NCBI RefSeq assembly: GCF_032362555.1
Contig: NC_083517.1
Coordinates: 9,196,001-9,260,000, forward strand
Length of the DNA stretch: 64,000 bases
Reading direction: 5' to 3'
Source of the DNA: Amyelois transitella
Lineage: Eukaryota; Arthropoda; Insecta; Lepidoptera; Pyralidae
The notes beneath the pieces are model-generated. The model saw only the letters and a list, made by a program, of their open reading frames with translations. It ran no database searches and had not been told where the DNA came from. A program made the position numbers and the translations under genes. Numbering within the stretch: the first letter of the stretch is position 1; each line of letters opens with the position of its first letter. This document shows, piece by piece, positions 36,838-57,338 of the stretch.

Positions 36838-37410
36838 GATCACGTCTATATCCCTTGCGGGGTAGACAGAGCCAACAGTCTTGAAAAGACTGAATGGCCA
36901 CGTTCAGCTATTTGGCTTAATGATAGAATTGAGATTAAAATAGTGACAGGTTGCTAGCCCATCGTCTAGAAAATAATCCCAAGTTTGTACTAAGCCTATC
37001 CCTTAGTCGCCTTTTACGACATCCATGGGAAAGAGATGGAGCGGTCCTATGCTTTTTTGTAATGGTGCCGGGACCCACACGGCACCAGTACAAGATCAAT
37101 ATAATTATTATAAGAGGTAATTTAAAACTCTATAGAATAACTACAACTTTTACTCGTATTAGGAATAGTAGTGCAGTGTGGTTCCCGGAAATCCCAATAG
37201 AAATAGGAATAGGACCGCTTTCCCATGGAAGTCGCAAGAGGCGACTACAGGCTTATAAACTTTAGATTCTTTTTATAGGCCATGGGCTAGCAACCTGTCA
37301 CTATTTGGATCTCAACTCTTATCATTCAGCCAAACTATCAGTCTGCAAGACTTTTAGCTCTGTCTAGCCCGCAAGGGATATAGACGTGATCATTTGTATG
37401 TATGTACGTA
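36838..37410. mobile_element. SINE S1 copies (minus 36838-37084, plus 37171-37410)
   Basis: Two near-complete copies head to head, with an 86-bp spacer. Confidence 0.75.
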
Positions 37411-37470
37411 TAGATTAAATAAAACAATGTTTCTTTTTTTTTTCAATTCAGTTTATTCATTCAAGATACC

Positions 37471-40400
37471 TCATTCATTCAAAATAGATGCCGATGACTT
37501 ATTTTTCTTTTTAATATCGCCGCATTCTGCCGCCTCTGATATCATTGAAAATATTGCATTGTTACGCACTTTTTTGGCAATTTGCTTGTCGTGGAATGGA
37601 TGTATATGCACTGAAGTCCTGAAATAATAATCGACTATTAAGGTACAGTCAAAAACGTTATTCAAATATACAGTGGCTGTGGTGAATACAAATATATATT
37701 ATTCCCGAACAAAATATAATATACTAGAGGCCCGCGACTTCGTCCGCATGGAAACCCTATCAATTCCGCGGGAACTCCAGGATAAAAAGTAGCCTATATG
37801 TTATTCTGGGTCTTCAGCTACCTACATACCAAATATCATCGTAATCGGTTCAGTAGTTTTTGCGTGAAACAGTACCAAACATCCATACTGACATACTCAC
37901 AAACTTTCGCATTTATAATATTAATAGCATTAATTTGCAGAGTTTACAAAAAATCGTTTAACAATGATTCTAATAGTGACAGGTTGCTAGCCCATCGCCT
38001 AAAAGAAGAATCTCAAGTTTATAAGCATATCCCTTAGTCGTCTTTTACTACATCCATGATTGATCTGGGTCTTGGATGTTTATCTATATAAGTATTTATT
38101 ATAAAATAAAGTATCGTTGAGTTAGTATCCCGTTACACAAGTCTCGAACTTACTTCGAGGCTAACTCAATCTGTGTAATTTGTCCCGTATATATTTATTT
38201 ATGTACTTACCTTTTCAAAACTACATCATCTTTGGTACACACGACCGCCCTGCATTTCTTAGTGCCATTACAGTCTATACAACGCCATTGTCTATAGCCA
38301 TCTTTGCCTTTGTATCTCAAACAGTAAATATATCTATTCAGTATAATTTGCAGGTTCCCTTGGTTAGAGACGCTGTACTGAATCTGTATGGACTTCGGTA
38401 TATCCAAAGGTTTTGTTAGATCTGGAAAAAAATATATACTATTTCAGGGTCAGTGTTTTATATATGTATATATACATACATACATATAATCAATTTAAAT
38501 CCCTTGCGGGGTAGGCAGAGCCAACAGTCTTAAAAATACTGAAAGGCCACATTCAGCTCTAGGGCTAAATAATGGAATTGAGATTCAAATAATGACAGGT
38601 TGCTAGCCCATCGTCTATAATGAGAATTCCAATTTCCTTTAGCCTTTTTCTTAATCGCCTTTTACGACGTCAATGAGAAAGATATGGAGTGGTCCAATTC
38701 TTAAAAACATTTCCAGAATTTCTTTACTGAACATACTTGTCGTGGAAGGGGTGTATGTACACTGAAGTTCCGAAATAGAAATCGACTATTAAGGTACAGT
38801 CAAAAACGTTATTTTATTTTATGCAAGTTACATTACTTTTTTTAACTGCCAATTTCTGCTTTTGTTCTCCCCTTCTGTTACTGTCCATAGTGTCGCTGTT
38901 TATTACTTTATCTGTCGTTTCTGGGCTGCCTGCGTCACAGAATTCTATTGAATTGTGAAATGTTCTGAAAAAAAAGTGAGTTTTATATGTATACGTTGTT
39001 TATGGACTAAGAAAAAAAAGTATTTTTTTTTTATAAATTTAAGAGGCCTGATTTTATGTACGTATATAAATATACCAAGCTGAGACTGATGGCTCTGTCT
39101 ACCCTGCAAGGGATACAGATGTGATTATATGTCTATCTATATGTTTGAAACCGAATGAAAAACTCAACAAAATAACGACCTTATTACAAGTAATTTAAAC
39201 TTAAAATCGGAAAACAAAATGCTCGTAATACGGGACAAATACGGGACAAATATATACGGGACAAATTACACAGATTGAGTTAGCCTCGAAGTAAGTTAGA
39301 GACTTGTGTTACGAGATACTAACTCAACGATACTATATTTTATAATAAATACTTATATAGATGAACATCCAAGACCCAGGCCAATCAGAAAAAGTTCTTT
39401 TCTCATCATGCCCTGACCGGGATTCGAACCCGGGACCTCCGGTGTCACAGACAAGCGTACTGCCGCTGCGCCACAGAGGCCGTCAATAACGTACAAGTTC
39501 AGTTCGCGAGTTCAAATAACGCGCTCTGATTGGCTCAAACGCTCAAATATTTTTGCGCCATACAGACTTATGCGCAAGTACAACGGCGTAATTTATAAAC
39601 ATACATACAGTCACGTCTATATCCTTTGCGGGGTAGACAGAGTCAACAGGCTTGAAAAGACTGAATGGCCACGTTCAGCTATTTGGCTTAATGAAAGAAT
39701 TGAAATTCAAATAGTGACAGGTTGCTAGCCCATCGCCTAACTAAGAATCCCAAGTTTGTAAGCCTATCCCTTAGTCGCCTTTTACGACATCCATGGGAAA
39801 GAGATGGAGGAGTGGTCCTATTATTTTTTGTATTGGTGCCGGGAACCACACGGCACCAATACAAGTAATTTATAAATGTTGTAAATACAGCTACTTACTC
39901 GTGATCCGAATTCAATGGCTCCTCTTTTTCATATGTTTCACTCATGTTCTGTGTAGTGCTTACGTAGCCAGATGGATTATTAGCGTCAGTGAGAAATGTT
40001 TTATAATTCTGAAATTAATATAAAAACATGATATTAAAGTATTAAATTTCATCATCTATTTATCTATATAAATGCATACATATGGTCGCGTCTATATTGC
40101 GGGGCACAGAGCCAACAGTCTTGAAAAGACTGAATAGCCACGTTCAGCTATTTGGCTTAATGATAGAATTGAGATTCAAATAGTGACAGGTTGCTAGCCC
40201 ATCGCATAAAAAATAATTCCAAGTTTATCCCTTAGTCGCCTTTTACGTCATCCATGGGAAAGAGATTAATTGCTCCTATTATTTTTTGTATTGGTGCCGG
40301 GCACCACACGGCACATATATGAAATAAAAATAAAACACGCCTTAGGGCTTCGATGCTTTGGGAATTTCGGGATAAAAACAACATATTGTTATACCAGGTT

Positions 40401-42640
40401 ATATTGGTGTATCGCATTCATAATATTAGGATAGGACATAATGGAGGACAGTGCTTGATCAACAGGGTCTAGATATTTGGAATTTGAAATGTCAGTTCCT
40501 TTATAATGCTGGGGTTCTACTAAAAGGCGATTTTCCAAAATTTCCACGACTCAACAATTCCTAATATAATATGACTGAGTTAGTATCTTGAACTAACTCG
40601 AAGCCAACTCAATCTATGTAAATTGTCCTGTTTACCTAAGAATATTAATTTTTCTCATGATTTATTGTCCGATCCATGCATGAAGCGAAACAGTAACGCA
40701 CCACAATATGTTTTTCACTTCACTACAGATATAATGAAAGCGTAAAGGGTAAGCTCAAAAGTACCCGAAACCTTGCATGAAGAGAGTTATGAATGTGGAT
40801 GAAGCGAAGTACTTACTTCATGCAGAGATCGAAGGAAGTATGCAGAGATCGTGGCAAGTGGAAAGAGGTAGTCTCTGCCTACCCCTCCGGGAAAAAGGCG
40901 TGATTTTATGTATGTATACCTATATTATTATTTTTTCATGATTTATTGTCCGATCCGTGCATGAAGCGAAACAGTAACGCACCATAATATGTTTTTCACT
41001 TCACTACAGATATAGTGAAAGCTTCAAAGAGACATAGATTAAAAACACACAAACCATGTCTTTTAAGCCATTAATATGTAGAGCTTGGGCCGCTTCAATG
41101 AGTTCATCTATATGTTCCCTGGACACGACTGCTTGGCCGGTATAAATATACTCCAATATTGAACATAGCGTGTGCGCTGAGATTTTCTGAAATAGAAAAA
41201 GCCATGAATCTTCAAGTGATAAGTCGACAATGTTATTTTCATTATAATCTTTATTAATTTTAACTTATTCCGAAAATTCCATTGTTTGTATTTTTTTTTT
41301 TGACAAATTGCACATATTGAGTTAGCCTCAAAGTAAGTTCGAGACTTGTGTTACGAGATACTATCTCGACGATAAAATATTTTATAACAAATTCTTATAT
41401 AGATAAACATCCAAGACCCAGGCCAATCAGGAAAAGTTCTTTTCTCATCATGCCCCATCTGCACCACAGAGGCCATGAAAAGTTGAATTTATTGTATTAT
41501 TTAAAATTAATTCTTATTTTAAATAATACAATAATATAAAAATACAATAATTAATTTTAAATTAATTCTAATTTTAAATAATACAATAAATAATTGTGGT
41601 ATATTGTCCTGAGAGTGTTGGTGGTTGAATCTGTAAGATGCCTGATTTAAATGTGTGTGGCGCAAAAAGGTACAGGTTCCAATCCCACCTCGGCCATGAT
41701 GGATGAAAATGCAACTGGGAAGAAAAGCCAGGAGAAGAATTGTTGTATATTGTTACGTATTGTATGTGGTATATGCTATCCTTTATCCATCCATATTAAT
41801 ATGATAAAGATAAAAGATAAGTACTCTTAAAAATAATCAATTTTAATTAATCTGTGGCTCTCTGTGTTGCAGTAATTGATCCCAGGTTCTAATCTCAGCC
41901 AGGACATGATGAGAAACGAACTTCTCTGATTGGCCTGGGTCTCAGTTTTTTTTATAAAATGTACTATACATTTGAGTTAGTATCTCATAACACAAGTCTC
42001 AAACTGACTCTGACATTTGTCCCTTATATATTTATATTAATCATCATAGTTACCTAATTTAACACAGTCTACTAGACTTACGTACATTTAAAAATATCAC
42101 TGGGTTTTGACCATGTACTGACTTTATCAGATCCTTAATGTACGGGCTCGCCAGGGACATGACTATCTGATGACATTTTACAAAATGCCCATCCGCAGCT
42201 AAAGTCATATCCACAAACTCTTCATTCTGAAAAAAGAAAAGATTTAACTAAAATATCACATTTAATCATACCCAAAAGCTGATAATAAACTTTGAAAAGA
42301 TGTTGTTGTGTTGTAAAACTTGTATTTGACAGTTTTTTAAGGCTGCTTTGGGTAAGTCAGATATGGACTTGAAGTAGACTAATAAAAACCGTCTAAATTC
42401 TGCAATATTTGAAGGGAAACATTGAACCCACATTAATAAATTATTTTTTAATCATTAGGTACATTGCGCAGGTTTCTTCGTGATGTTATCCCTCAACGTT
42501 AAGTTGTAAAAGAGCAAGAAATGAATTTATTGATTTCTAATAAAGAAGTGATTGAAATTTACCTGCTGCAAAGCTCCTAAGCCATTACAAATGTTATTCT
42601 GGAAAGCGTCCCACGACAAGGTGAATCGTGGGTTGGCCAT
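37471..42640 (-). CDS. BTB-FLYWCH protein, paralogue A (mod(mdg4)-like), seven coding exons
   Basis: Probable nuclear DNA/chromatin-binding protein: the BTB domain mediates dimerisation and the FLYWCH finger is the likely DNA-binding end (known for the families, inferred here). Exons in coding order: 42640-42563, 42226-42086, 41186-41055, 40008-39899, 38964-38837, 38421-38211, 37618-37471. All have consensus splice sites and give 315 aa. Residues 1-117 form the BTB domain (FTLSWDAFQNNICNGLG, then FVDMTLAADGHFVKCHQ and LCSILEYIYTGQ). A linker with NSIEFCD follows. The FLYWCH finger has W-R-C244, C253, H271 and H273. A polyadenylation signal (minus AATAAA) lies at 37452-37457, very close to the stop. 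Introns carry SINEs, a LINE fragment flanked by a ~100-bp repeat, and a dead copy of exon 7. Nearest sister is paralogue B. Confidence 0.9.
37724..37927 (-). mobile_element. Helitron H2 in paralogue A last intron
   Basis: CTAG at 37724-37727. The start end has degenerated ('aatagca' where 'agtagga' is expected). An S1 piece (37970-38058) follows. Confidence 0.65.
38060..38202 (+). mobile_element. tRNA-SINE S2 body against the exon 6 donor of paralogue A
   Basis: Runs from 'tgatctgggtcttggatg' to the 'tttgtcccgtatat' tail. It ends about 7 bases from the GT of the exon 6 donor (minus strand, 38210-38209). Confidence 0.75.
38472..38705 (-). mobile_element. SINE S1, diverged
   Basis: Minus-strand copy between exon 6 of paralogue A and the dead exon 7 duplicate. 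Confidence 0.7.
38710..38815 (-). pseudogene. Dead duplicate of exon 7 of paralogue A
   Basis: Matches the start of exon 7 and its upstream intron (37595-37670), including the identical intron phrase 'actattaaggtacagtcaaa'. The acceptor AG has become GG, the first zinc-binding His is now Tyr (SVYIHPFHDK), and the frame meets a stop three codons after DKY. It lies between exons 5 and 6, so splicing to it would break the protein. It shows that a partial, local exon duplication happened here. Confidence 0.8.
39236..39482 (-). mobile_element. tRNA-SINE S2, full length
   Basis: Has both pol III boxes in the head near 39410-39480, in intron 4 of paralogue A. Not a functional tRNA. Confidence 0.8.
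39598..39856 (-). mobile_element. SINE S1, full length
   Basis: Head ends about 42 bp from the exon 4 donor of paralogue A. Confidence 0.8.
40073..40314 (-). mobile_element. SINE S1
   Basis: Near-complete copy in intron 3 of paralogue A. A Helitron scrap ('gcttcgatgctttgggaatt') follows to about 40435. Confidence 0.75.
40646..41028 (+). mobile_element. LINE fragment flanked by ~100-bp direct repeats
   Basis: The LINE 3' end at 40748-40920 contains an internal duplication around 'gcagagatcg'. It lies between two nearly identical ~100-bp segments (40646-40747 and 40927-41028) that share 'tttattgtccgatcc' and 'cacttcactacagatata'. The right repeat is intron sequence just downstream of exon 3 of paralogue A. 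Confidence 0.75.
41310..41476 (-). mobile_element. tRNA-SINE S2 with an internal deletion
   Basis: Body intact, most of the tRNA head deleted ('catcatgcccc' joins 'atctgcaccacagaggcc'). An AT-rich 17-bp perfect hairpin (about 41485-41526) and a further copy of its arm follow. Confidence 0.65.
41610..42035 (+). mobile_element. S3 fragment and diverged tRNA-SINE S2
   Basis: S3 piece at 41610-41735 ('tacaggttccaatcccac') and S2 at 41860-42035 with a mutated head, in intron 2 of paralogue A. Confidence 0.55.
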
Positions 42641-43428
42641 TACCGCCAGTTTTGCTGTATGGGTTCTCAAAAACGACAAGTTTTTCGCCCACACAACATA
42701 AATCTTATTCAATTTATACAAGTATTTATCGTAATATAATATATAGGTACGGCAGAAGTGATAAAAAAAAAACAACAAACACGAACTCGTAGGTAGTTAG
42801 AAATAGGACAATAGGAATGAATTACAGCAAATACACAAAACCACAATCAATGAATCAATCAAAAGATTATTGCAACTACTTCTGGTAAAAAAGCGCGAAT
42901 CTGAAGAAAGTGTGCTCATTTTAAAAAAAATCTGTACCTATGTTCTTGTAGTTACATATTATACACATCATACCTTTAATTTATTGCTCATTCCCGACAA
43001 TCGGGCATCTACATCTACCTTTTTGATGTAAAACTATATTACCCATGCAGTGTAATAAACTAGGTACTTAATTTACCGTTGACTATTTTTTATTACAAAA
43101 TTCTAGAGTTGTTCGTCTGTAGAAGCAATAGTGTTGCTTAATATTCGTTGCGTTTCCATAAGTGTGTTTTGCTAATGAAAATTAAGTAATTAAGCGCTTT
43201 ATTCAGCGAGCTTGTTAAAAACATTCGAAATCATAGGAATTATAGAGGTTCAAAGAAATCGAAAAGTTTATCTAGAAATTAATATATGATCTCGGGTTCT
43301 AAACTCCAAATTTTGAGCGCTGATATATCCAAAAAATGCTACATTTGGCGCTAAAACCACAAAGTTTGAAACATTGACCGCTTGTATCATTGCTGTTGTA
43401 TTTGGTTCGTTACATCATGCAAGTCAAT

Positions 43429-43444
43429 TTGACATTGACATGTG
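43429..43444 (-). promoter_or_regulatory. Shared upstream motif of paralogue A
   Basis: TTGACATTGACATGTG (plus strand) lies about 790 bp upstream of the ATG of A. Nearly the same 16-mer is 314 bp upstream of B, and a looser ACATTGACA is about 310 bp upstream of C. Function unknown. Confidence 0.4.
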
Positions 43445-43807
43445 CCATACTTTGTTTTTTTATTTTGATACGCATGAATAGTTAAGTTTCAAATCTTAAA
43501 ATAATGGCTTCTACCATCCAGTGTGCATCCAGTCATCTCAGTAGTATTAATTAAGAAAGAGAAAATTTTGAAGTTGTGTAGATATGTGAGTGGTTGTCTC
43601 TTTCAAACAAAAACAACAACAGTCATGAAATTCATTTATGATCAATTTTTATTAAATTTTAAATCTAATTTTCTCTAGCCATAGGAGTTGGAATAAAATA
43701 AGGATATATTATTTGTATGTCTCCTGATGATTTTTGAACCTTACGGCGTTCTACGATGGCAATCACTTTGATGAATAAAAATAAATAATTGCTTTTTTTC
43801 ACACATT

Positions 43808-46800
43808 TTAATATTTTTTTAAAGTACATTTAAACACTTTTTTTGGCTTTTTTATATCATTGCGTTCTGCTGCCTCCGAAATCATTGAAAATATTGCATT
43901 GTCTCGTACTTTTTTGGCAATTTGCTTGTCGTGGAATGGATGTATGTGCACTGAAGTTCTGAAATAAAATTAACTACCTACTTAACAAAAACGATAATTT
44001 CTTACAAATTTTTGAAGAATAAAAATACGAAACAACGCACGTTAGCTAAATTGCTAACCGATGCTCTTACGTCTAGGGTAAACATCGTGAGAAAACCTGT
44101 ACATTCAGGCAACTGGATGTGTTATTATGATTCAATTAGGGTTTCCCTTCGAATTTTGCAAAGGCCAAAAAAATTTTGTCTACAAGAATCTTGAATTTAT
44201 AAGCCTATCCATTAGTCGCCCTTAATGACAACCATGGGAAACATATGAAGTGGTCCTATTATAAAGTACCTGGAACCACACGGCACTTTAACAAGACAAT
44301 CACACAGATTTTGAGCTAAGCCCTAAAGTTCGAACGAAACACTCACACTATATATACTATGTTTGCTATTTTCTTAAGGTTAACTGGTAAAAAATGTCAT
44401 AAGCATTGACCTCAACTACATACATACATACATATGGTCACGTCTATATCCCTTGCGGGGTAGACAGAGCCAACAGTCTTGAAAAGACTGAATGGCTATT
44501 TGGCTATTTGGTTTAATAATAGAATTGAGATTCAAATAGAGACAGGTTGCTAGCCCATCGCTTAAAAAGAATACCAAGTTTGTAAGCCTATCCCTTAGTC
44601 GCCTTTTACGACATTCATGGGAAAGAGATAGGAGTGGTCCTCTTCTTTTTTGTATTGGTGCCGGGAACCACACGGAAAACTTCATCTATTGTATCTTAAA
44701 GGCTCAATAAATCCTACTACTATTATAAAGGCGAAAGTTTGTATGGATGTATGGATGTTTGTTACTCTTTCACGCAAAAACTACTGAACCGATTACCATG
44801 AAATTTGGTATGTAGGTAGCTGAAGACCCAGAATAACACATAGGCTACTTTTTATCCCAGAGTTCCCGCGGGATTGATAGGGTTTCCATGCGGACGAAGT
44901 CGCGGGCGGCCTCTAGTAAACATATATATTGTTCTCTTATATTCAACTTACTATGTACTTATATTCAAAAGTGTGTAAAGATGAACAGACCTTTTCAAAA
45001 TGGCGTCGTCCTTGGTACTGACTACTGCTCTACATTTGTTGGTGCCATAGTCTAAACACCGCCACATTCTGTATCCGTCTTTGCCGGTGTATCTCAAACA
45101 ATAAATAAATCTATTCAGTATTACTTGCAAGTTGCCCTGGTTTGATATGCTGTATTGAACCTGTGCGGTGTTGGGTAATCCAACAGGTTTCGTGGGATCT
45201 GTAAAAAAGAAATGTGCCATTTTAGTATTTTATTAATAACGATCACTGCTTTGAGTATTGATATGAAAACTTAAAACAAAATCCTGCTTAATGCATTTTA
45301 TCTGCGCCGCCTTTTTCGATTTGGGATAAGTATCTATTCCTATTTTAATTACCAATTGGGATAAGTCCGTCCGTAAAGAGTTTACAAACAAACAAACAAA
45401 TCACTCCTCTTTTATACATACTTTGGTTTTCATCTTAATCAAATTCACCAATATTTTTTTTATTTTATTGGAAATGTGGGTAAGTCTCTCTACCTGATAG
45501 TACCTATACAAGGTCTTAGATGTTTGCCATGGATTTTTCCAAACGCTCACGCAAATGTAGACCCTAAGCTCGAAAGCATTACAGGATACAATCGAGAACA
45601 CACTCAGAAAAAGTTGGAATACTTGTTTCTTCAACAATGGATACTTACAAGGTACAGTATGTACTACCACGTTTATAAGTTGCCTAGGCAATCAACAGCG
45701 CCGAATATCGCATCCTACCGCCTCAATAAAATAACGACCTTATTACAAGAGCATAAAACTTAAATTCTGAAAACATCCTCCTGCGGTTTTGCTCATAACA
45801 GTAGTGCAATAGGGGACAGTTTCGTTCGCGGGTTCAAAATAGTTCATATTTTCGCGACATACAAAAATTTTACTTCTATTAGGGTTGTGCATCACATCGA
45901 TATAAGTACCATATAAACGTGCTAAAATTGTAATACTTATTGACGTCAAACATAACCGTCTAACAATTTATTTATTTTTATTTTATACTAGAGGCCGCCC
46001 GCGACTTCATCCGCATGGAAACCCTATCAATCCCGCGGGAACTCTGGAATAAAAAGTAGCCTATGTGTTATTCTGGGTCTTCAGCTACCTACATACCAAA
46101 TTTCATGGTAATCGGTTCAGTAGTTTTTGCGTGAAAGAGTAACAAACATCCATACAAACTTTCGCCTTTATAATAGTAGTAGGATTAATTTCTAGCTCAA
46201 GCAAGCAGCAATAAAATAATTGATAACTAAACACATATGCCGTGTGGTTCCCGACATCAATAAAAAAATGTAAATTAAATAAAATTTATAATTAAAGTTG
46301 CTACAGTTTCCAAAGCGCTAGTGTAGAAGAAGCGACGGAACAAACTACTCTACACAAACACTGTATTATTATTATCATCAAATTCCTCAATTTACATATA
46401 TGTATTTATAGATGTTAAATCTAACAGTACTTTTATTTTCTACCGCTTTCTGCACTCTATTCTCCTTTCTCTTGCTGGTTTGAGATTCACTGTTAGTTAC
46501 GTCATTTGTACGTTCCGTTACTTCTGTGCTGCCTGTGTCACAGAATTCTATCGAGTTATCCATAGCTCTGAAAAAAAAGAAAATTATATCCAAAAAAGAC
46601 CGCTAGTATTCACGAGGGACATTTATTATTATTTGTTTGTTTGTAAACTCTTTATCGCACAAAAAAGGCACGATACTATATGGAAACGAGAATTTGAAAA
46701 AAAAATTACACTGGCGAATTTTTTAAAGAATTAGTCTGGTAGGTTGTAGCCTAACCCACCGGAAAAAAATATGGTAATATATGCAAATGTATATAAAAAT

Positions 46801-49800
46801 ATAAAAGATACATTAGTTAAATGATTTTTTTGTAAAAAAATCTACTTAAATACATATTTATCTTTCAAAACTTACTCATGGTCTGAATTTTCCGAATTCC
46901 GTTTCTTAAATGTTTCAGTTGCATTTTGGGAACCGCTTGCGCAGCCAGGTGTTTTCACATTTGATAAAATCTCTTTATAATTCTGAAAGGAATAATATTT
47001 TTTATTGTTGATGCTTTAGAAAGGGAATTCGAGCAATTTCTTTCTCTTCTTCTTCAGCATTAAAGTATTTGCGCACTGCTGGGCATATGCCTCTCCAATA
47101 TCTTTCCACCTAGCTCTATCAAAGGTTTTCCTGGCCCAGGTTATCCTAGCGTGGCTTTTTATGTCATCGGATCAGAAAGATCTGCCAGTATTCCTCTTTC
47201 TTTTGTTCTCTACGTCTGCACACATGGCCTACCCACGCCCACTTAACTTTAGCAATGGGGTCTACCAACGTCCAGTAGTTTGGTGCGCTGGCGCGTGTCA
47301 TGCTGAATGGCAGGACTCCTCTTTAAAATATGACAAACTATATATGCATATATCCATCCTGCCCTTCATATAATCACGTCTTTATCCCTTGCGGGGTAGA
47401 CAGAGTCGTCTTGTAGAGACTGATAGGTCACATTCAGCTATTTAACTTAATGATAGAAAATAATGAGAGGTTGCTACCGCGAGTCCTATTTTTTTATATT
47501 TGCCGGAACCACACGACACACTAACATATAAAATACATACATACAAAATATGATATATGGCAGATTGAAATTATAAACCAAAAGTAAATCAATGCCCAAA
47601 TTTAGCTTTTATATGTTGAAAGTTTATCCCTTAGTTAAATACTTATATCAAAAACACACACAAACCATCTCCTTAAGACCTTTGATGTGTAGAGCTTTTG
47701 CGGCTTCAATAACTTCATAAATATGTTCTCGGGCCACAACAGCCTGACCAGTGTAAATGTACTCTAATATTGAACATAGTGTGTGAAATGAGATTTTCTG
47801 AAAGAGAAGAATTTTTTTTCTAAATATACATTCATATAGTCACGTCTATATCCCTTGCGGGGTAGACAGATCCAACAGTTTTGAAAAGACTGAAAGGCAC
47901 ATTTAGCTCTATTGCTAAATGATGGTATTAAGATTCAAATAGTGACAGGTTGCTAGCCCATAGCGTACAAGAATAACACCAAGTTAAATATGGACTGGGT
48001 TACAATATGACCTATGTAAAGCGAAATAGGAAGAATATAATAATTAAGATTTCAGATATTGCACTCATATGCACACTTTTGACACTCAAAAGGTTCTGAA
48101 ATGAATTAAGATTTTTTATAATTCAGTCATTTTATCATCATGCTTCTTTAAGGGAGACTACATCGTTCCACTTGCCACAATCCCTGCATACTTCTCTCGC
48201 TTCATCCACATTCATAAAACTTGTCATGGAAGCTCGTTAACTTCTGAGCCGAACCCACTATCCGATTTACACGCGCATCTGCTGCGGGAAATCAATTTTT
48301 CGAGCATTAAAGGAGTATTTCCAAAGTTATTACTATAATGCATTTAATACTCAAAAAAAATAAATGTGGCCGGTAGAGCAAGCCCAGAGCTTAATCAGTT
48401 GAGGCCAGTGCACTGATCAGTGCATAGGCAGCTGAGAAGTTAAATATGAAATGTTCTTTTAACACGGAGGAAGTGAAGAGTAAGACAGTAATTTTATTTG
48501 ACCTGTTTTTTTTGGCATAATCTAATCTATAATCTAAAAACATTAAGCGCAAAGACTTACATTTAAGAATATCACTGGCTTCTGACACTGTGCTGACTTT
48601 ATCAGATCCTTGATGTATGGGCTCGCCAAGGACAGAACTATCTGATGAACTTTAACAAAATGCCCGTCTGCGGCTAATGTCATATCCACAAACTCTTCAT
48701 TCTAAAAATAGTTACAATATTTCTTGATAATTTTACTTGTCCCAATTCTATAAATATAGTGTCCCAAAGCTATAAAGATATCCTCCTTATAAAATAAACA
48801 TAAATATAAGATGATGATTGTATTACTCTTGACAAAAAGCTAGGCTCAACTCTTAAAACGGGCCACCGCCAGAGAGGTTGGGGAGGGGGTGGGGAGGGTG
48901 GGGGAGGGTTGTATGACCCCCCCCCAAGTATTTTTTTTTGCCGGAAGCCCCCCCTTTTTTTATATGAATTTTTGAAAATCTTAAAAATTGCACTTAACAA
49001 CGCAATATTTTCGGCTTGTCATTGTAAACTGTGTTAATTTAGTATTAAATAATTAGTTTGTCCATTAAACATGTACAATACATTAATTAATATATTTTAG
49101 CACTAAAAATATAGTCAAAAACTTAGCTTAAAAGTAAAAACAAAAAAGACACTAACTATGAACAGAACACAATCTGCTGTTTTGGTTATGTGCTACTGTC
49201 ATCTTATCTACTGACTTCGAAAGTAGCTGTCGGTAAAAGGACAGCGGGGGGTGCAGGGGGGCGCAGCCCCCCCGCACGGGGGGGTCGGGGGGCGGTAGCC
49301 CCCCGCAATGAAAAGAAACAAATTGGTCACAAATCAAACTCGGTTTGGTTAGGTTAGGTTAGGTTGGTGTAAACCACCAAAGCGGAGCGAGCGAAGCGAG
49401 CGGAGCGTTCAAACTGAGTAAAAAAGTCTAATAGTAAGTACGTATAGGTTAGGTTAGGTTTTACTCACCTTCACCCCTTTAATCCCTTCTTACTTTCCCC
49501 CCCCCTTGCCCATCTGGCGGTAAATTACCTTTAGCACACTTTTTATATGAAAACTTTAAAAATTCGTAAAAAAAAAACTATAGGCTTCCGGCAAGGGGGG
49601 GTCACGGGAGGGGGGGTGTTACCACCTCCCCATCCCCCTCCCCCCTCCCCACCCCTCTCCGGCGGTGGCCCGTTTCAAGAGTTTTACCAAAAGCTACTGG
49701 TCAAAAAGAAGTTTATGGACTTGCTCCCTCAATGCAAATCTATTATATTTCCATATAGTATGAAATACATAGAAAAGTTTACAGCCATAGAAATAGGCTC

Positions 49801-50091
49801 AATGTAGTCAACAAAAGTATTATATTAATCTTTATATGACTTCAAACTCTCTTTCAATAGGTAAATTTATCTATTGATGCAAGATGCAATACAAACAAAA
49901 CATCCAGCAAATGCCTTAATTAAGTACACACAATATTTGGCTAATTGTAATAGTGCTTGAAAATTAAAACGCGTATTCTTGTAGTAAATTAATTTATAAT
50001 GTTTGAAACTTACCTGTTGCAATGTTCCTAAACCATTACACATATTATTCTGGAAAGAGTCCCACGACAAAGTAAAATGTGGTTTAGCCAT
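43808..50091 (-). CDS. BTB-FLYWCH protein, paralogue B (mod(mdg4)-like), seven coding exons
   Basis: Same architecture and exon phases as A. Exons in coding order: 50091-50014, 48701-48561, 47797-47666, 46982-46876, 46567-46431, 45198-44991, 43958-43808, giving 317 aa. Exons 1, 2, 3 and 6 are 78, 141, 132 and 208 nt, identical in length to C. The BTB domain is residues 1-117 (FTLSWDSFQNNMCNGLG; FVDMTLAADGHFVKVHQ; LEYIYTGQAVVARE). The linker contains DNSIEFCD. The finger has C246, C254, H272, H274. The C-terminus is extended by a basic run ending LKKY. A minus AATAAA lies at 43648-43653. Intron 1 hosts an 846-bp TIR transposon. Function is inferred from domains only; all splice sites are consensus and no frame break is seen, so it looks active. 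Confidence 0.9.
44190..44677 (-). mobile_element. SINE S1 copies in paralogue B last intron
   Basis: Head piece at 44190-44287 and a full copy at 44416-44677, with an S3 scrap at 44058-44130 beside them. Confidence 0.75.
44712..44916 (+). mobile_element. Helitron H2, complete, 205 bp
   Basis: TC start at 44712, CTAG end at 44913-44916, inserted between A and T. The 3' hairpin comes from 'gcggacgaagtcgcgggc'. Confidence 0.8.
45988..46184 (-). mobile_element. Helitron H2, complete, 197 bp
   Basis: Same family as 44712-44916 in the opposite orientation, about 1 kb away in intron 5 of paralogue B. The pair forms a long-range inverted repeat around exon 6. Confidence 0.8.
47040..47300 (-). mobile_element. 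Remnant of a second RTE-type LINE
   Basis: One minus-strand frame reads SDDIKSHARITWARKTFDRA then RWKDIGEAYAQQ, the usual C-terminal pattern of RTE-clade LINE proteins. It differs from the LINE at 55367-57338. Heavily decayed. Confidence 0.6.
47368..47990 (-). mobile_element. SINE S1 pieces around exon 3 of paralogue B
   Basis: 47368-47521 and 47830-47990, both minus strand. The second begins about 33 bp from the exon 3 acceptor. Confidence 0.65.
48150..48245 (-). mobile_element. LINE fragment
   Basis: Minus-strand copy of the segment encoding the MNVDEAKEVCRDRGKW region, without the tail. Confidence 0.65.
48843..49688. mobile_element. 846-bp TIR transposon with 8-bp target duplication
   Basis: Long terminal inverted repeats of roughly 150 bp start GG, then AACTCTT and an AAACGGGCCACCGCC block, and contain G/C homopolymer runs. 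AAAAGCTA flanks both sides (48835-48842 and 49689-49696); an 8-bp duplication suits hAT-like or P-like elements. The centre has a GGGGGG/CCCCCC-rich hairpin (49243-49310) and short TTAGG runs, and no transposase. Inserted in intron 1 of paralogue B. Confidence 0.75.
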
Positions 50092-50404
50092 TATGGATAA
50101 ATATCAGTGTCCGCTATATGAAAAGATAAAGGTAAAGAAAAGAGTCTCAAACTTTTTTGAATAATAATCCGAATCAATAACAAAGGTCTTAAGAACGACA
50201 AGAGAACAATTTGTTTGTTAAATCGTATGATGTCCGGAAGGGTAGATTACGGTTCTAACTCAATAAAAAATCTAATGAGTGAATATGTAAGTGATAAATT
50301 TCGAATTTTAATTTTTCCTAAACGAAAATACACAAAACATTCGTTTTCGTATTTTTATTCGCATTTGACATTTGGATTACCTCTGTGGATTTGATAATGA
50401 CATA

Positions 50405-50420
50405 TTGACATTGACACGTG
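50405..50420 (-). promoter_or_regulatory. Shared upstream motif of paralogue B
   Basis: TTGACATTGACACGTG on the plus strand, 314 bp upstream of the ATG. It differs by one base from the motif upstream of A. Confidence 0.4.
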
Positions 50421-50454
50421 TGCAACATGTTTTAGGTCTACTTACATTTTTAGT

Positions 50455-50720
50455 AAGCCGAACTGTGTGGTTCCTTGTTCCCGGCATTTTAGATTATAGT
50501 ATCTTTTCCCCAAAGGATGTAAAAGGCAACTAAGGGCACATTCATCAAGTGCAAGCTTTTTCAGCTGTCTGATAGGGAAGAAAAAACCAGCCCTTCTCTT
50601 CCTGCGCAGATTGTAAAAGCTAATCAAAGGAAAGGCTTAATCAATTTCGCATTCTTTTATGCAATGGGTTGGCAACCTGTCTTATCTAAATCTCAGTTCC
50701 AACAGTAAGCCAACCAGGTA
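50455..50720 (+). mobile_element. Old, diverged SINE S1
   Basis: Recognisable by 'gtgtggttcc', 'ttcccggca', 'ggatgtaaaaggcaactaag' and 'ggcaacctgtc', but with many changes and an insertion. Confidence 0.55.
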
Positions 50721-50763
50721 AGTATGTATTTAGAAAGAGAGATTAGATCTGTAATAATAAAAT

Positions 50764-50852
50764 AAGAAGGAAGTATGCAGAGATCGTGGCAAGTGGAAAG
50801 AGGTAGTCTCTGCCTACCCTTTCGGGAAAAAGGCGTGATTTTATGTATGTAT
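50764..50852 (+). mobile_element. LINE 3' end fragment
   Basis: Last ~85 bases of the LINE with its TATG tail, between paralogues B and C. Confidence 0.75.
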
Positions 50853-51005
50853 AATAAAATAGGTAAAGTGTTTTATCTCGTACGGGAACTTGTGCTTCGC
50901 AAAGTAGTTACCTCAAGGCAGGATTAAAGAAATACGAACAACAAAAAAATTATAAGTTCTTAAATATTTACATATAAATTATTAAAATTTATTTTGTTTT
51001 TTTTT

Positions 51006-54000
51006 TCAAGATGTGTCATCATGGTTTTTCGTTTTCTTCAAATCGCCATGTAGTTCTGCCTCAGAAATAAGTGAAAATACTGTATTATCACGCACTTTTT
51101 TTGCAATTTTACCATCATGGAATGGATGGATGTGTGCTGAAGTCCTGAAAATGCAAAAGCGGTTAATGTAACTAATGAACAGATTTTCGTGTAATAAATT
51201 TTTCAGTTCAATCTTTTCAGGTGTTGGTTCTGTCTACCCCGCAAGCGATATAGACGTGATTATATGTATGTATGTAGGGTACTTAGTTCTATTATTTAAC
51301 ATATAATTTGTGTATTTATTTCACACTTAAGTTGACACCAGATTTTTCTAAAAGGTGACGGGTAGAAAATGCAATTAGCGTTAAATCCACCTATTGTAGT
51401 GTGATTCACGGCAAAAAAAAAGGAATAGGACCACTCCTTCTCTTTCCCATGGATGTCGTAAAACGCGACTAAGGGACAGGCTTATAAACTTGAGATTCTT
51501 CTTTTAGGCGACGACTTCTTTTTGTATATCAATTCTATCACAAAGCCAAACAGCTGAATAGCCAAACTGTTGGCTCTGTCTACCTGATTATTATTTATGA
51601 TAGCCAAAATCTTTCAAAACTCCCTGCTGTTAGTGAATTGGGAGTTATCTACCTTCTTGGTGTGTCATTATCATTCTGACAATCTTTAAATATTCCCTCA
51701 ATAATATGGTGCAATAATTATTATATCATAAAGATATTCAATTGTAACTATAATCAAGTCATACTGAGTGCAGGTGTATGAATTAAGGGCCAATGGACCT
51801 AAGAGTTTGGTAAAACAAAATATCTACCTCCTCAGAACAATGTCATCTTTTGTACTGACAGCTGCCGGACATTTCTTTTTTATATAGTCTGTGCAACGCC
51901 AATGTCTATGGCCAGTTTTTGAACTATATCTCAGATAGTAGAGGTATCTATTCAAAATCATTTGTAGGCTTCCCTGGTTTGACACGCAGTATTGAATCTG
52001 TAGAGAGTCAGGTGTTTCAGTGGGCTTTATAGGATCTGAAAAATATGATATAATATCAGTGTATAACAGTTTAGCACAAAAATAAACTTGAATTTCAAGA
52101 CAATTTTTTTTAGGATTATTAATATCAGCGAAACCCGGAGTCAGAGAGGGGTCATTATTATGAAAATCACTTTTAGGGCTATTTCTATTATTACGGCACT
52201 TTTAGGGTAAATAGGTTTAGTTTTGGTTTTGCAATTTTAGAATTAATACATATAAACCATCCTCTTGAATAACTCCAGCTATTAAAAAGACTGCATTTAA
52301 AATCTATCGTGTAGTTTTAAAGATGCAAACATACATACATACATACAGATGGACAGACACTGAAAGCCACTTTACTTTTTTTATTTAATATTGTATTAGG
52401 CATTTGTGTTCCATCTCACCTGATGTTAAGTGATGTTAAAGATTTAACATGCCTTTTTTAAGAGACCAGAGATTGGGGTACCGTTTTTCCAATTTGGCTA
52501 TAAAATTCTAAATATAATTAATTGCGTTTTTAACTGTAGGTACCTTTATTCACTGCTACCATCATCTGCTTCGTTTTCTTTCTCTCTCTAATTTGGCTTT
52601 GGGTCTCAATATTAGTTGTGTCGTCTGTTGTATCATCCATTCGTTCTGCGTCACAGAATTCTATTGCGTCGTCTATATATCTGCAAAAAATAAAAAAATA
52701 ACGACCGTACAGACTTATTTTTTTAAAAGAAGTCTGTACGGTCGGGTTTTTGTCGGTGGAGGTAATTGGAGCGTCCTCCATTCGTCTCTTTTTTCTCGAC
52801 GACAAGGAAGAATTTATAAATTAAAAATAAAATTTTTAATACCTCTGCAATGCAACTTTGACCATGTGTCTATTACTTATTATTCTATATATGTCTATTA
52901 CTTATTATATCTAGCCCCTTTATTTGATGCTTGATGTCAAGGGAGTCTACAAATTTGTGATGGTGGCCATCTTGAGCCATCAGCTGCTTCTCTTCCTGTG
53001 CAGATTGTAAAAGTTAATCAACGGAAACGATAAACTTGGGATTATTTTTAGGCTTATTCTTTTTATCTTGCTAGACCATGCTATCTGAGCTTTGTTGTTG
53101 TTTAATCCATGTTTGTTTTACTTGTATTTTTCAACAAATATTCCAAAAATGTTAGAATAGAACCACTATATATCTTTCCCATGGATGTCGTTAAAGGTGA
53201 CTAAGGGATAGGCTTCAAAACTTGGATTCCTTCCATTGAATACTTGGATTCTTTCCTTTTTGAAACTGTTGGCCCTGTTACAAGTCGCCTATGGCAAATA
53301 AATGGAAAAATAGTTCTATACTTACTCATGATCTGAATTTTTGATTTCTGTATATCTGTCCTTGACATATTTTGTACTTGTATTTATTTCACTCGAGGTA
53401 TTTCTTTCGTAGCTAGCTTGATTGTTTGCATTCTTAATTGATAAAGATACTAGATGATCCTGTAAGGCATAACAATCGTAACAATATTTTAATATGGTTC
53501 ACATAATTGAGACAGTCTCTCCAAAATAAAAGTATTTTATAACCAGTTGGCAGTTATCTATATCCCTTTCAGGGTAGACAGAGCTAACAGTCTTGAAAAG
53601 ACTTAAAGGCCATGTTTAGCTTGTAAGTCAGAGGTCAGATGAAGGGAATCATGATGAGAAACAAACTTTATCTGATTGGCCTGGGTCTTGGATGTTTATC
53701 AATAAAAAGTATAATAAATTATAGTATCATTGGGTTAGTATCTTGTAGCATACATACATACATACATATAATCACGTCTATATCCCTTGCGGGATAGACA
53801 GAGCCATCAGTCTTGCAAAGTCTGATAGGCCACATGCAGCTATTTGGCTTTAAGATAAAATTGAGATTCAAATAGTGACAGGTTGCTAGCCCATCGCCTT
53901 AAAAAGAATCCCAAGTTTGTAAGCCTATCCCTTAGTCGCCTTTTATGACATCCATGGAAAAGAAATGGAGTGGTTCTATTCTTTTTTGTATTGGTGCCGG

Positions 54001-54993
54001 GAACCACACGGCACTTGTATCACACGGATCTTGTAGCACAAGTCTTAAATTGTCTTCGAAGCTAACTCAATCTGTGTAATCTGTCCCATATATATTTATT
54101 TATATACATACAAACCATTTCTTGAAGTCCTCTTATGTGCAAAGCCTGGGCACCTTTGATAAGTTCATCTATATGTTCTTTGGCCACAACTGTTTGCCCT
54201 GTGTATATGTATTCTAATATTGAGCATAATGTATGATATGAGATTTTCTGTAAAAAAAATGTGCTATTTAGTTACATGCTAAATAGTAATCACGTCTATA
54301 TATCTTGTGGTGTTGAAAGAGCCAAGTCTTGAAAATACAGAAAAGTCACAGATTGATGTGAGTAATTGAAAAAATGATTCTAATAATATTATTTTTTATA
54401 ACTACCAATTGCGACTTGCTTTTCATTGCAATGAACAAATGATATTACGTACATTTAAGAATATCACTGGATTCCGACATTGTGCCGACTTTATGAGCTC
54501 TTTTATGTAAGGGCTGGCCAGTGAGAGGACTATCTGATGAACTCTCACAAAATGCCCATCCGCAGCTATTGTCATATCCACAAACTCTTCATTCTGAAAA
54601 TAGAAATGTTTAGATTACATACATACATAAAATCACGCCTCTTTCCTGGAGGGGTAGGCAGAGACTACCTCTTTCCACTTGCCACGATCTCTGCATACTT
54701 CCTTCGCTTCATCCACATTCATAACTCTCTTCATATGTTTAGATTACTTAATAATTTATATACTTAAATCTATTATGACAGCGTAGACTTGGCCATGGCT
54801 GTCCACCAGAGGGAACTTTCAATATAAAAGCTGGTCACGGCCATCAAATGTAGACTGCAGACTCTGTCTCCCCCGTAAGGGATATTTGTTAGATGTATAG
54901 TTAATGAAAACGCACCTGCTGGAGAGTTCCTAAGCCGTTACAAATGTTTTGCTGAAATGCATCCCAAGACAGCGTGAACTGTGGCTGTGACAT
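51006..54993 (-). CDS. BTB-FLYWCH protein, paralogue C (mod(mdg4)-like), seven coding exons
   Basis: Exons in coding order: 54993-54916, 54593-54453, 54247-54116, 53459-53326, 52680-52544, 52035-51828, 51144-51006, all with consensus splice sites, giving 322 aa. BTB domain at residues 1-117 (FTLSWDAFQQNICNGLG; FVDMTIAADGHFVRVHQ; LEYIYTGQTVVAKE). The linker has DAIEFCDAERMDDTTD, and the FLYWCH finger has W-R-C255, C263, H281, H283. It is the most diverged of the three (its end reads KNHDDTS rather than the A/B ending), which suggests it split first. A minus AATAAA at 50988-50993 almost overlaps the stop. A LINE is inserted 374 bp upstream of its ATG on the opposite strand. Role inferred from domains. 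Confidence 0.9.
51213..51590 (+). mobile_element. SINE S1 fragments
   Basis: A tail piece at 51213-51277 and a diverged body at 51393-51590, in the last intron of paralogue C. Confidence 0.65.
52702..52744. repeat. Perfect 15-bp inverted repeat beside exon 5 of paralogue C
   Basis: CGACCGTACAGACTT (52702-52716) pairs exactly with 52730-52744 across a 13-base AT loop, about 20 bases upstream of the exon 5 acceptor in the transcript. Confidence 0.8.
53640..54105. mobile_element. SINE S1 inserted into a tRNA-SINE S2, with 11-bp target duplication
   Basis: S2 (plus) runs 53640-53750 and resumes at 54028-54105. The inserted minus-strand S1 occupies 53751-54027. ATCTTGTAGCA is repeated at 53740-53750 and 54028-54038. 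Located in intron 3 of paralogue C. Confidence 0.85.
54618..54734 (-). mobile_element. Short LINE insertion with 12-bp target duplication
   Basis: 117-bp 5'-truncated copy. ATGTTTAGATTA is repeated at 54606-54617 and 54735-54746. In intron 1 of paralogue C, 25 bp from the exon 2 acceptor. Confidence 0.85.
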
Positions 54994-55366
54994 TGGTTTT
55001 GTTGCGGTATCTGTAGCACAAATTTGATAAATGGGTAATAAAAGGCAATTACAACAAAATACAGTTGCATCTATTCAACTATAAGTAATGTTATCTGAGT
55101 ACGGGTTGAGATGTCGTATTTAGATACCTTGAGTTCTGTTAAAGAAAAAAAAACAAGAATCGATAATTATTTTATTTAAAATTCGTAAACGGCAAAATAT
55201 TCTCCTTGAAAACAGCGTAAACAAAAAACAATACAAATTTCAATTGAGCATGAATGATCAAATCCAAATGTCAAGGAAATGTTATAATTGATTGACACTT
55301 ACATTTAACATTGACAATTTTTATACTTTTTAAAGTGGAAGGAAAGGAAGCAACTATAATACGTTA

Positions 55367-57338
55367 GCAGCAAAAGCTAACTTAAGAATGCAAGAGGTTA
55401 TAGATGAAGATGTGAATGAAGCACGTAAGGAATATAAGAAAATGAAAGATTTGGTTAAGAAAGCTGTGATTAGAAAGAAAGAAGAGTATAAAGAGGATTT
55501 TGATAAAAGGCTATCAGAAGACTTTCAGTCAAATCTGAAAGTATTCTGGAAATCCGTAAGGTCAGCCCGAGGAAATACTATAACCAGAGAGCTGACTAGG
55601 ATCAGATGCCAGGATGGTAGCGTTGTGAAAGGAGAAGAATGTGTACTAAAGATATGGAAGGACTATTTTGAAAGTTTATTTGAAAAAAAGGAAGGAAATA
55701 AGAAAGATTTCTGCTATAGCGAAGAAAAAGAGAATGAGATGGAAGGCGAAATTGAAATGTTCGAAATTGTGGAAGCACTTAAGAGTATGAAAGCGGGAAA
55801 GGCTGCTGGGTGTGATAGAGTGTCGGTCGAGATGCTTAAAGCAGGAAAAGGCGTAGTAGCTAGTCAGTTGTACTGCCTTTTCAATTTGTGTTGGAGAAGC
55901 GGCCGAGTACCAAAAGATTGGTGTAAGGCTGTTATCGTGCCACTTTACAAAGGAAAAGGGTCACAGCTGGACTGCAAAAATTATCGTGGTATAAGCCTGC
56001 TTAGCGTCGTCGGCAAATTGTATGCTAAGGTATTGATTAATAGAGTCAGGAATGAAACTGATGACAAAATATGGGATGCTCTAGCGGGATTTCGAAAGGG
56101 AATGGGATGTACTGATCAGGTCTTTTCCTTGCGGTGCATAGCCGAAAAGTTTTTGGCCAAGAGTCAAAAAGTCTATTGCACATTCGTAGATCTGGAAAAG
56201 GCCTATGACAGAGTTGAGAGGAATGAATTGTGGTCAGCACTTTCTATGCATGGGGTGAGCAGTCTCTTAATACGAGCACTGAAATCCTTATATGAGGATT
56301 CGAGTGCTTGTGTCAGGATAAACGGAGCGCACACTGAGTGGTTTAAGATTGAGAAAGGCGTTAGGCAAGGATGTGTTGCGTCACCGTGGCTGTTCAACCT
56401 ATTTATGGATAGCTGTTTGACAGATTTGAAAGAGTCTAAAAGTGGATTAAGGATGAATGAGTTACTCGTCAAATGTCTGCTCTATGCCGACGATCAGGTT
56501 ATACTGGCGTCATCAGCGGAGGAGTTACAGGAGATGGTAAACTATGCATGAAGCTTTAAAAGAGAAAGGAATGAAAGTGAACGTAAGTAAAACTAAAACA
56601 CTGGTTTTTGAAATGGAGAAAGAAATGACAGCATGTAATATTTTGATTGGAGGAGAAAAAGTGGAGCAAGTGAAAGAGTTTGTATATCTAGGATCAAAGT
56701 TTACATCAGATGGCAAGTATGATAGTGATATTGAAAGGAGAGTGAACGCGGGGAACATGGTGAATGGAGCTTTGCATGCCTTTATGAGCAGTCAGAAACT
56801 ATCCAAAAAGGCTCGACTGGCTGTGCACAGGGGCGTGTTGGTCCCGACATTAATGTATGGGAGTGAAAGTTGGGTATGGCAAAAGAAGCATGAAAGCAGA
56901 ATAAATGCAGTGGAAATGAGAGCGTTAAGGAGTATGATGGGTGTGAAATTGAGTGACAGGATAAGGAACAGCGTGATAAGGGAATGTTGTGATGTGAAAG
57001 AAGATGTAGTTACAGGAATAGAAAAGGGTATGTTAAGATGGTTCGGTCATGTGGAGAGGATGAATGAAAGCAGGTTGACTAAGCAGATATACAAGGAGAG
57101 TGTGGAGGGAAAGGTCGGAGTGGGAAGACCTAGACGAACATATCTTGATCAAATTAAGGACGTCCTGGTAAAGGGTCAGGTCAAAAGTACCCGAAACCGC
57201 CGAGCTTGTATGAAGAGAGTTATGAATGTGGACGAAGCGAAAGAAGTATGCAGAGATCGTGGCAAGTGGAAAGAGGTAGTCTCTGCCTACCCCTCCGGGA
57301 AAGAGGCGTGATTTTATGTATGTATGTATGTATGTATG
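55367..57338 (+). mobile_element. 5'-truncated RTE-like LINE with reverse transcriptase (one frameshift)
   Basis: Non-LTR retrotransposon; its enzyme copies RNA into DNA at a nicked target. The 12-mer TATAATACGTTA flanks it (55355-55366 and 57339-57350). The first frame (ATG at 55388, to 56551) carries the reverse transcriptase: AAGCDRVSVEML and YRGISLL blocks, CTFVDLEKAYDRV with the catalytic Asp, KGVRQGCVASP and the YADD active site (about 56485). A frameshift near 56540 moves the rest into the frame 56544-57311, which holds YGSESWVWQKK, LRWFGHVERMNESR and a basic tail. The 5' endonuclease domain is missing, so the copy cannot move on its own. Ends in (TATG)n. The clade (RTE-like) is judged from motif style only. 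Confidence 0.9.

Follow-up and report, generated by a model that had tools for sequence, protein, structure and literature searches.

A likely five-gene BTB-FLYWCH family in Amyelois transitella that appears distinct from the genome's mod(mdg4)-type gene

Two described systems stand closest to the subject of this study, three adjacent BTB-FLYWCH genes (here A, B and C) in a 64-kb window of Amyelois transitella DNA, by which we mean the whole stretch analyzed (C13:9196001-9260000). One of them, mod(mdg4), has been described in the fly, mosquitoes, monarch, diamondback moth and silkworm (PMC4667647). In the monarch, the locus spans 550 kb, 33 of its 40 ends coming from the strand opposite the donor, and 40 and 41 end combinations are known from RNA in the monarch and the diamondback moth, respectively (PMC4667647). 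The other is a set of silkworm BTB-FLYWCH genes, ZBTB14, ZBTB15 and ZBTB16, which encode 299, 338 and 389 amino acids and are all located on chromosome 12. Two silkworm BTB-FLYWCH genes are numbered consecutively (Gene007418 and Gene007419), duplication was inferred by the authors, and five BTB-FLYWCH genes were counted in the monarch (PMC4033408). Judged by the published table and text, the silkworm genes have the same two domains as A-C, in a pattern that resembles A-D plus E (two further genes of the moth, see below), although the words "cluster" and "tandem" are absent from the main text of that paper. Within the literature searched, the phrase BTB-FLYWCH was found in PMC4033408 alone. More broadly, a study of arthropods reports that in the species it covered, other than Arachnida, FLYWCH is found together with TTK-type BTB domains only (PMC11426971).

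Here, we report that A, B and C are in all likelihood intact, conventionally cis-spliced paralogues, belonging to a five-gene family (A-E) that grew by successive whole-gene duplication. As judged from introns and trees, this family is set apart from the mod(mdg4)-type gene of the same genome.

Gene models, domains and extent of the family

Genes A (37471-42640), B (43808-50091) and C (51006-54993) are adjacent and all on the minus strand, their order from the side of transcription being C, B, A. Their 21 coding exons, seven per gene, were rebuilt from the DNA, with a GT donor and an AG acceptor in 18 of 18 introns and with intron phases (0,0,0,2,1,2) that are identical in the three genes. Exon lengths, given in nucleotides for C/B/A, are 78/78/78, 141/141/141 and 132/132/132 for exons 1-3, 134/107/110 and 137/137/128 for exons 4-5, and 208/208/211 and 139/151/148 for exons 6-7, the last including the stop codon. 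The predicted proteins have 322, 317 and 315 amino acids (C/B/A), and whole-protein identity is 71% for A-B, 63% for A-C and 61% for B-C. Each gene keeps a start codon of its own together with all seven exons, the 21 exons contain no stop, frameshift or broken splice site, and the coding-to-coding gaps within the trio are 1167 and 914 bases. These models agree exactly with the span (37471-54993) and exon count given by a first-pass annotation of the DNA letters, and they bear out its description of three separate, complete genes on one strand that share a seven-exon plan with identical phases and near-identical lengths. The features are as follows.

54916-54993, minus strand: gene C exon 1, with the start codon and FTLSWD, the N-terminal strand of the BTB
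54453-54593, minus strand: gene C exon 2, BTB
54116-54247, minus strand: gene C exon 3, BTB
53326-53459, minus strand: gene C exon 4, linker
52544-52680, minus strand: gene C exon 5, linker, IEFCD island
51828-52035, minus strand: gene C exon 6, FLYWCH finger, C-C ligands
51006-51144, minus strand: gene C exon 7, H-x-H ligands of the finger, tail, stop
50014-50091, minus strand: gene B exon 1
48561-48701, minus strand: gene B exon 2, BTB
47666-47797, minus strand: gene B exon 3, BTB
46876-46982, minus strand: gene B exon 4, linker
46431-46567, minus strand: gene B exon 5, linker
44991-45198, minus strand: gene B exon 6, FLYWCH finger
43808-43958, minus strand: gene B exon 7, finger end, tail, stop
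42563-42640, minus strand: gene A exon 1
42086-42226, minus strand: gene A exon 2, BTB
41055-41186, minus strand: gene A exon 3, BTB
39899-40008, minus strand: gene A exon 4, linker
38837-38964, minus strand: gene A exon 5, linker
38211-38421, minus strand: gene A exon 6, FLYWCH finger
37471-37618, minus strand: gene A exon 7, finger end, tail, stop
38736-38813, minus strand: truncated relic within gene A intron 5, derived from exon 7 plus the intron before it and identical to 37585-37662 at 70 of 78 bases

As for the domains, all three proteins pass the Pfam cut-offs, with 67.6-71.5 bits for BTB (PF00651; E 8e-20 to 1.3e-18, cut-off 20.5) and 33.3, 29.3 and 25.0 bits for FLYWCH (PF04500; cut-off 23.6), the lowest score being that of A. 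The C-C-H-H ligands of the finger, read off the sequence, are intact in A-C (C-x7 or x8-C-x17-H-I-H), which upholds the original description of a BTB domain joined to a single FLYWCH finger. Judged by profile scores and ligands, the finger is real but divergent. The BTB of B also matches solved BTB structures, vertebrate ZBTB17 ranking highest and the fly TTK-type CG6765 being included (E 6.7e-8).

Conservation is unevenly spread along the proteins. Identity over the three pairs is 77-89% in the BTB exons, 29-47% in linker exons 4-5, 57-72% in exon 6 and 60-76% in exon 7. The linker exons are thus the most variable, as first noted, but not uniformly, for all three genes keep one island unchanged where exons 4 and 5 meet (NSDHE followed by IEFCD). 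Pairwise ratios of nonsynonymous to synonymous substitution rates (dN/dS; NG86; pairs A-B, A-C and B-C) are 0.09, 0.09 and 0.05 for the BTB, 0.11, 0.13 and 0.11 for the finger, 0.28, 0.30 and 0.26 for the tail, and 0.31, 0.43 and 0.78 for the linker, all of them approximate because dS runs from 0.7 to 2.7 across regions. The BTB and finger of A-C are under purifying selection and the linker is weakly constrained; from the low ratios of BTB and finger, the three genes look functional. The earlier claim that these two parts are conserved therefore stands (dN/dS 0.05-0.13), but diversification of the linker by selection is not supported: no pair exceeds a dN/dS of 1 there, and positive selection was rejected as an explanation. 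Gene conversion of BTB exon 2, suspected from its dS of 0.52-0.81 as against 2.0, saturated and 2.3 in exon 3, was likewise rejected; identical-codon tests gave uncorrected p values of 0.13, 0.03 and 0.14, and fourfold sites showed no clear difference.

Relatives were sought in the whole assembly, 327 Mb spread over 33 contigs. With BTB exon 2 of B as the query, 23 of 23 candidates were scored and 16 matched, five of them closely (76-100% identity) and all five on contig C13. They belong to A, B, C and two more genes: D, at 9320316 on the minus strand, lies ~65 kb upstream of the trio and on the same strand, and E, at 7667637 on the plus strand, lies 1.57 Mb from it. Beyond these, the next best match is 42% identical, and the remaining ten reach 36-53%, in most cases along a shorter stretch. 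The finger query gave 13 matches (72 of 72 candidates scored), namely the finger exons of A-E (48-96%), exon 7 of A-D (55-97%) and four others at 29-35%. The parts identified in D are first exons of 78/141/132 nt and a finger exon and exon 7 as in A-C; those identified in E are three first exons of the same lengths and the finger exon. The finger exons of both have the splice phases of A-C. In A-D a phase 2 intron interrupts the finger ahead of the H-x-H ligands, at the site where the finger exon of E also ends. Close BTB exons and close finger exons are therefore five and five, one each per gene, in this assembly, which is possibly incomplete, and since they correspond one to one genome-wide, there is no pool of extra finger ends. 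Within the window, tblastn returned no match below E 1 to further BTB-FLYWCH exons outside 37471-54993. The family is thus not confined to the window, as D and E lie beyond it, which corrects the first-pass annotation. On a BTB tree of six sequences (A-E, with the donor on contig C9 described below as root; LG+G4), E was probably the first gene to arise, followed by D, next C and last A and B. Ultrafast bootstrap support on the three internal branches is 62, 94 and 82, the A-B pairing having 62.

The mod(mdg4)-type donor and FLYWCH array on contig C9

A BTB donor with its start codon at 2764485 lies on the minus strand of C9. We take it to be of mod(mdg4) type from its likeness to the fly protein and from the adjacent finger array, not from a database match. 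Out of 117 BTB positions, it is identical to A, B, C, D and E at 38, 41, 40, 37 and 46, respectively. The donor has no counterpart of the intron that follows codon 26 in A-E, and its BTB intron, in phase 1, sits 11 nt upstream of the place where A-E have theirs, in phase 0.

The adjacent array is large. Among the best 150 of 416 candidates in a Pfam FLYWCH search of the genome, 137 are on C9:2.24-2.76 Mb and none on C13. A hidden Markov model built from 37 of these and run on 250 kb (C9:2510001-2760000) found 202 matches, of which 188 are almost complete, and every one shares the minus strand with the donor; once fragments are merged, 199 FLYWCH places remain on one strand. Below 2.51 Mb there are 41 more among the candidates listed and 8 further (three weak, E 4e-4 to 9.5e-3), and here some array matches are on the plus strand. 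The locus, C9:2243448-2764485, thus holds at least 248 FLYWCH matches, a lower bound because the dense scan covered only the 250 kb. The median spacing is 1011 bases and nearest-neighbour identity has a median of 52% (maximum 98%), so most array fingers are not assembly copies. Acceptors were called for 139 of the 188 fingers in a looser scan (28 of 188 in a stricter first one), and 120 of the 139 share one phase, which is also the finger-acceptor phase of A-E. At 188 shifted control places, 89 acceptors were called, 25 with that phase. These 199 same-strand places differ from the monarch locus, where the ends are mostly on the opposite strand (PMC4667647). A count of FLYWCH ends near 200 was not met with in the literature searched, which was covered in part, most subscription papers lying outside it. 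The array represents several-fold more FLYWCH ends than in monarch or diamondback moth, with the proviso that exon matches in DNA and expressed combinations are different measures.

The first-pass annotation had proposed separate trees of the BTB and FLYWCH parts; run within this genome, they give the order E, D, C, A+B for the BTB and place the fingers of A-E in one clade with a support of 0.991. This finger tree (FastTree) comprises A-E (E by exon 6 only), one stand-alone C9 finger and 188 array fingers; it was built without the 14 shorter array matches, the part of the array under 2.51 Mb and further FLYWCH copies. The fingers of A-E do not intermingle with array fingers. With midpoint rooting, their clade joins array fingers 2733808 and 2751754, near the donor (support 0.743); on these trees the clade may lie inside or outside the array as a whole. 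All 188 array fingers are each in one open frame, in contrast to the intron-split fingers of A-D. In sum, A-E resemble mod(mdg4) in combining BTB and FLYWCH, in the conserved BTB Asp and His, and in the finger-acceptor phase of this genome's array. They differ from it in that one BTB donor with many alternative FLYWCH ends is not found among them, nor are the position and phase of the donor's BTB intron or its intronless fingers, and in that the donor is here on C9.

A stand-alone pair on C9 (6784486-6788647) has a BTB exon and, ~3.7 kb downstream, a FLYWCH exon. As in A-E, the two domains are on one strand, consistent with one gene. Unlike in A-E, the BTB exon stops where the mod(mdg4)-type donor has its intron, in the same phase, and the finger falls outside the A-E clade. 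This pair (C9:6784401-6788700) is possibly a single-end form of the mod(mdg4)-type gene.

Another FLYWCH finger opens a 478-amino-acid frame at C10:8284854-8288048, with equal-scoring copies on C24, C32, C2 and C6. The rest of this frame looks like a Mutator-like element (MULE) transposase.

Alternative explanations, relics and neighbours

The first-pass annotation had raised the possibility of a mod(mdg4)-like shared system, in which A, B and C would form one small locus whose BTB exons are cis- or trans-spliced to the finger exons of their neighbours. Identical splice phases across A-C and the short gaps between coding regions favor this, and so do the duplicated finger-piece relics in A and E, which show that exon-level duplication happens. 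However, cross-gene splices would be in frame because of duplication alone, and the relics are incomplete: that of A (38736-38813) is truncated and, as read off the sequence, has no AG acceptor, and that of E, a second partial finger-exon copy just downstream of its finger, matches at 88% over 81 bases and then runs into a stop. Moreover, each close BTB exon in the genome has a single close finger exon to go with it, A, B and C all possess a separate start codon and every one of their exons, the mod(mdg4)-type donor sits on a different contig and has its introns elsewhere, and the fingers of A-E form a separate clade. We consider a shared locus very unlikely.

It is also very improbable that A-E came about within this lineage when the mod(mdg4)-type donor was copied and the copies were joined to duplicated array fingers. 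Domain order, BTB residues D32 and H45, and the finger-acceptor phase of A-E and 120 of 139 called array exons are common to both; the array finger closest to A-E by tree distance, 2751754, adjoins the donor and groups with them together with 2733808, and the trees do not place A-E outside the whole array. Against this stand a BTB identity of only 37-46 of 117, the donor's lack of the codon-26 intron and its displaced phase 1 intron, and the intron that splits the fingers of A-D at the site where E's finger exon ends. A common ancient ancestor of A-E and the donor is likely. That one or more of A-C is a decaying, functionless duplicate is suggested by the youth of the A-B pair on the BTB tree (support only 62) and by the FLYWCH score of A, but with 21 uninterrupted exons and a dN/dS far under 1 in BTB and finger for three of three pairs, we regard this as highly improbable. 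The evidence is best accounted for by conventional paralogues, each with a fixed BTB-finger pair.

The trio is flanked on one side by a fatty-acid elongase gene (ELO, two pieces; Pfam; 23962-26852) and on the other by an ankyrin-repeat gene (Pfam; 59742-60092). The segment 58281-58607 carries a DSGFLS motif and has no Pfam match; the motif is reminiscent of the IkB/Cactus family. A reverse transcriptase (55334-57308; RVT_1 in 55334-56545, then an overlapping second frame) starts ~340 bases upstream of the start codon of gene C. Intron 1 of gene B contains a block of ~800 bases (~48859-49662) that by eye is rich in G at one end and in C at the opposite end; its ends resemble inverted repeats, which makes a non-autonomous DNA element possible. 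Repeats of ~250 bases resembling short interspersed nuclear elements (SINE-like), 80-91% identical, occur in several introns and flanks of A-C (36900-54020), and by eye such blocks explain much of the difference in intron length. No viral relatives were confirmed in IMG/VR with two peptide patterns, and phage records queried with protein B at a threshold of E 0.01 yielded none either.

Proposed function and significance

In the fly, Mod(mdg4)-67.2 binds the CP190 M domain through its BTB and Su(Hw) through its C-terminal end, and its FLYWCH domain aids recruitment (PMC5666082). TTK-type BTBs form hexamers and broad heteromers (PMC11426971). By homology, each A-E protein may be a small chromatin-associated adaptor. 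Its BTB would assemble with itself, with paralogues and perhaps with other TTK-group BTB proteins, and the single finger with its conserved tail would bring the complex either to DNA itself or to a partner bound there, a role modelled on what the C-terminal half of fly Mod(mdg4)-67.2 does together with Su(Hw) and CP190. Spacing or the choice of partners would be governed by the fast-evolving linker and the conserved island within it. The Asp and His named the most conserved in the Mod(mdg4) BTB (PMC5666082) are kept (D32 and H45), and A-C share with the TTK group an N-terminal BTB with an F-x-L-x-W core (PMC11426971).

Several points weigh against our account of A-E as functional paralogues acting in this way. 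The FLYWCH scores of A-C are close to the cut-off and the substitution rates are rough. The finger tree pairs A and B at 0.843 but gives the group A-D only 0.308, and it recovers neither A-B-C nor the order of duplication. The TTK signature FxLRWN, as defined in PMC11426971, is degenerate, reading FTLSWD in A-C, VSLSWD in D and FSLTWN in E (R to S or T, and N to D in A-D), with FSLCWN in the C9 donor (R to C). Silkworm BTB-FLYWCH proteins are predicted by software to be cytosolic (PMC4033408). In the fly, deletion of the FLYWCH domain lowered recruitment, yet the mutant phenotype was still restored (PMC5666082), and the role of the finger is uncertain because that deletion alone failed to abolish the insulator function of Mod(mdg4)-67.2.

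These results resolve a tempting confusion, for BTB-FLYWCH genes clustered in tandem are not necessarily mod(mdg4). In addition, the gap between the number of ends in the C9 array and that known from RNA makes a concrete long-read test possible. A speculative and rather unlikely extension is that the fixed A-E proteins serve as constant BTB partners of the variable C9 pool (at least 248 FLYWCH matches), which would yield hundreds of distinct chromatin adaptors. As part of that same idea, and just as doubtful, one architecture may have diversified in two opposite modes, by duplication of genes with a fixed pair (A-E) and by a single donor with an array. What the genome does offer, within one species and for the same pair of domains, is a clean comparison of gene duplication in A-E with exon-pool expansion on C9.

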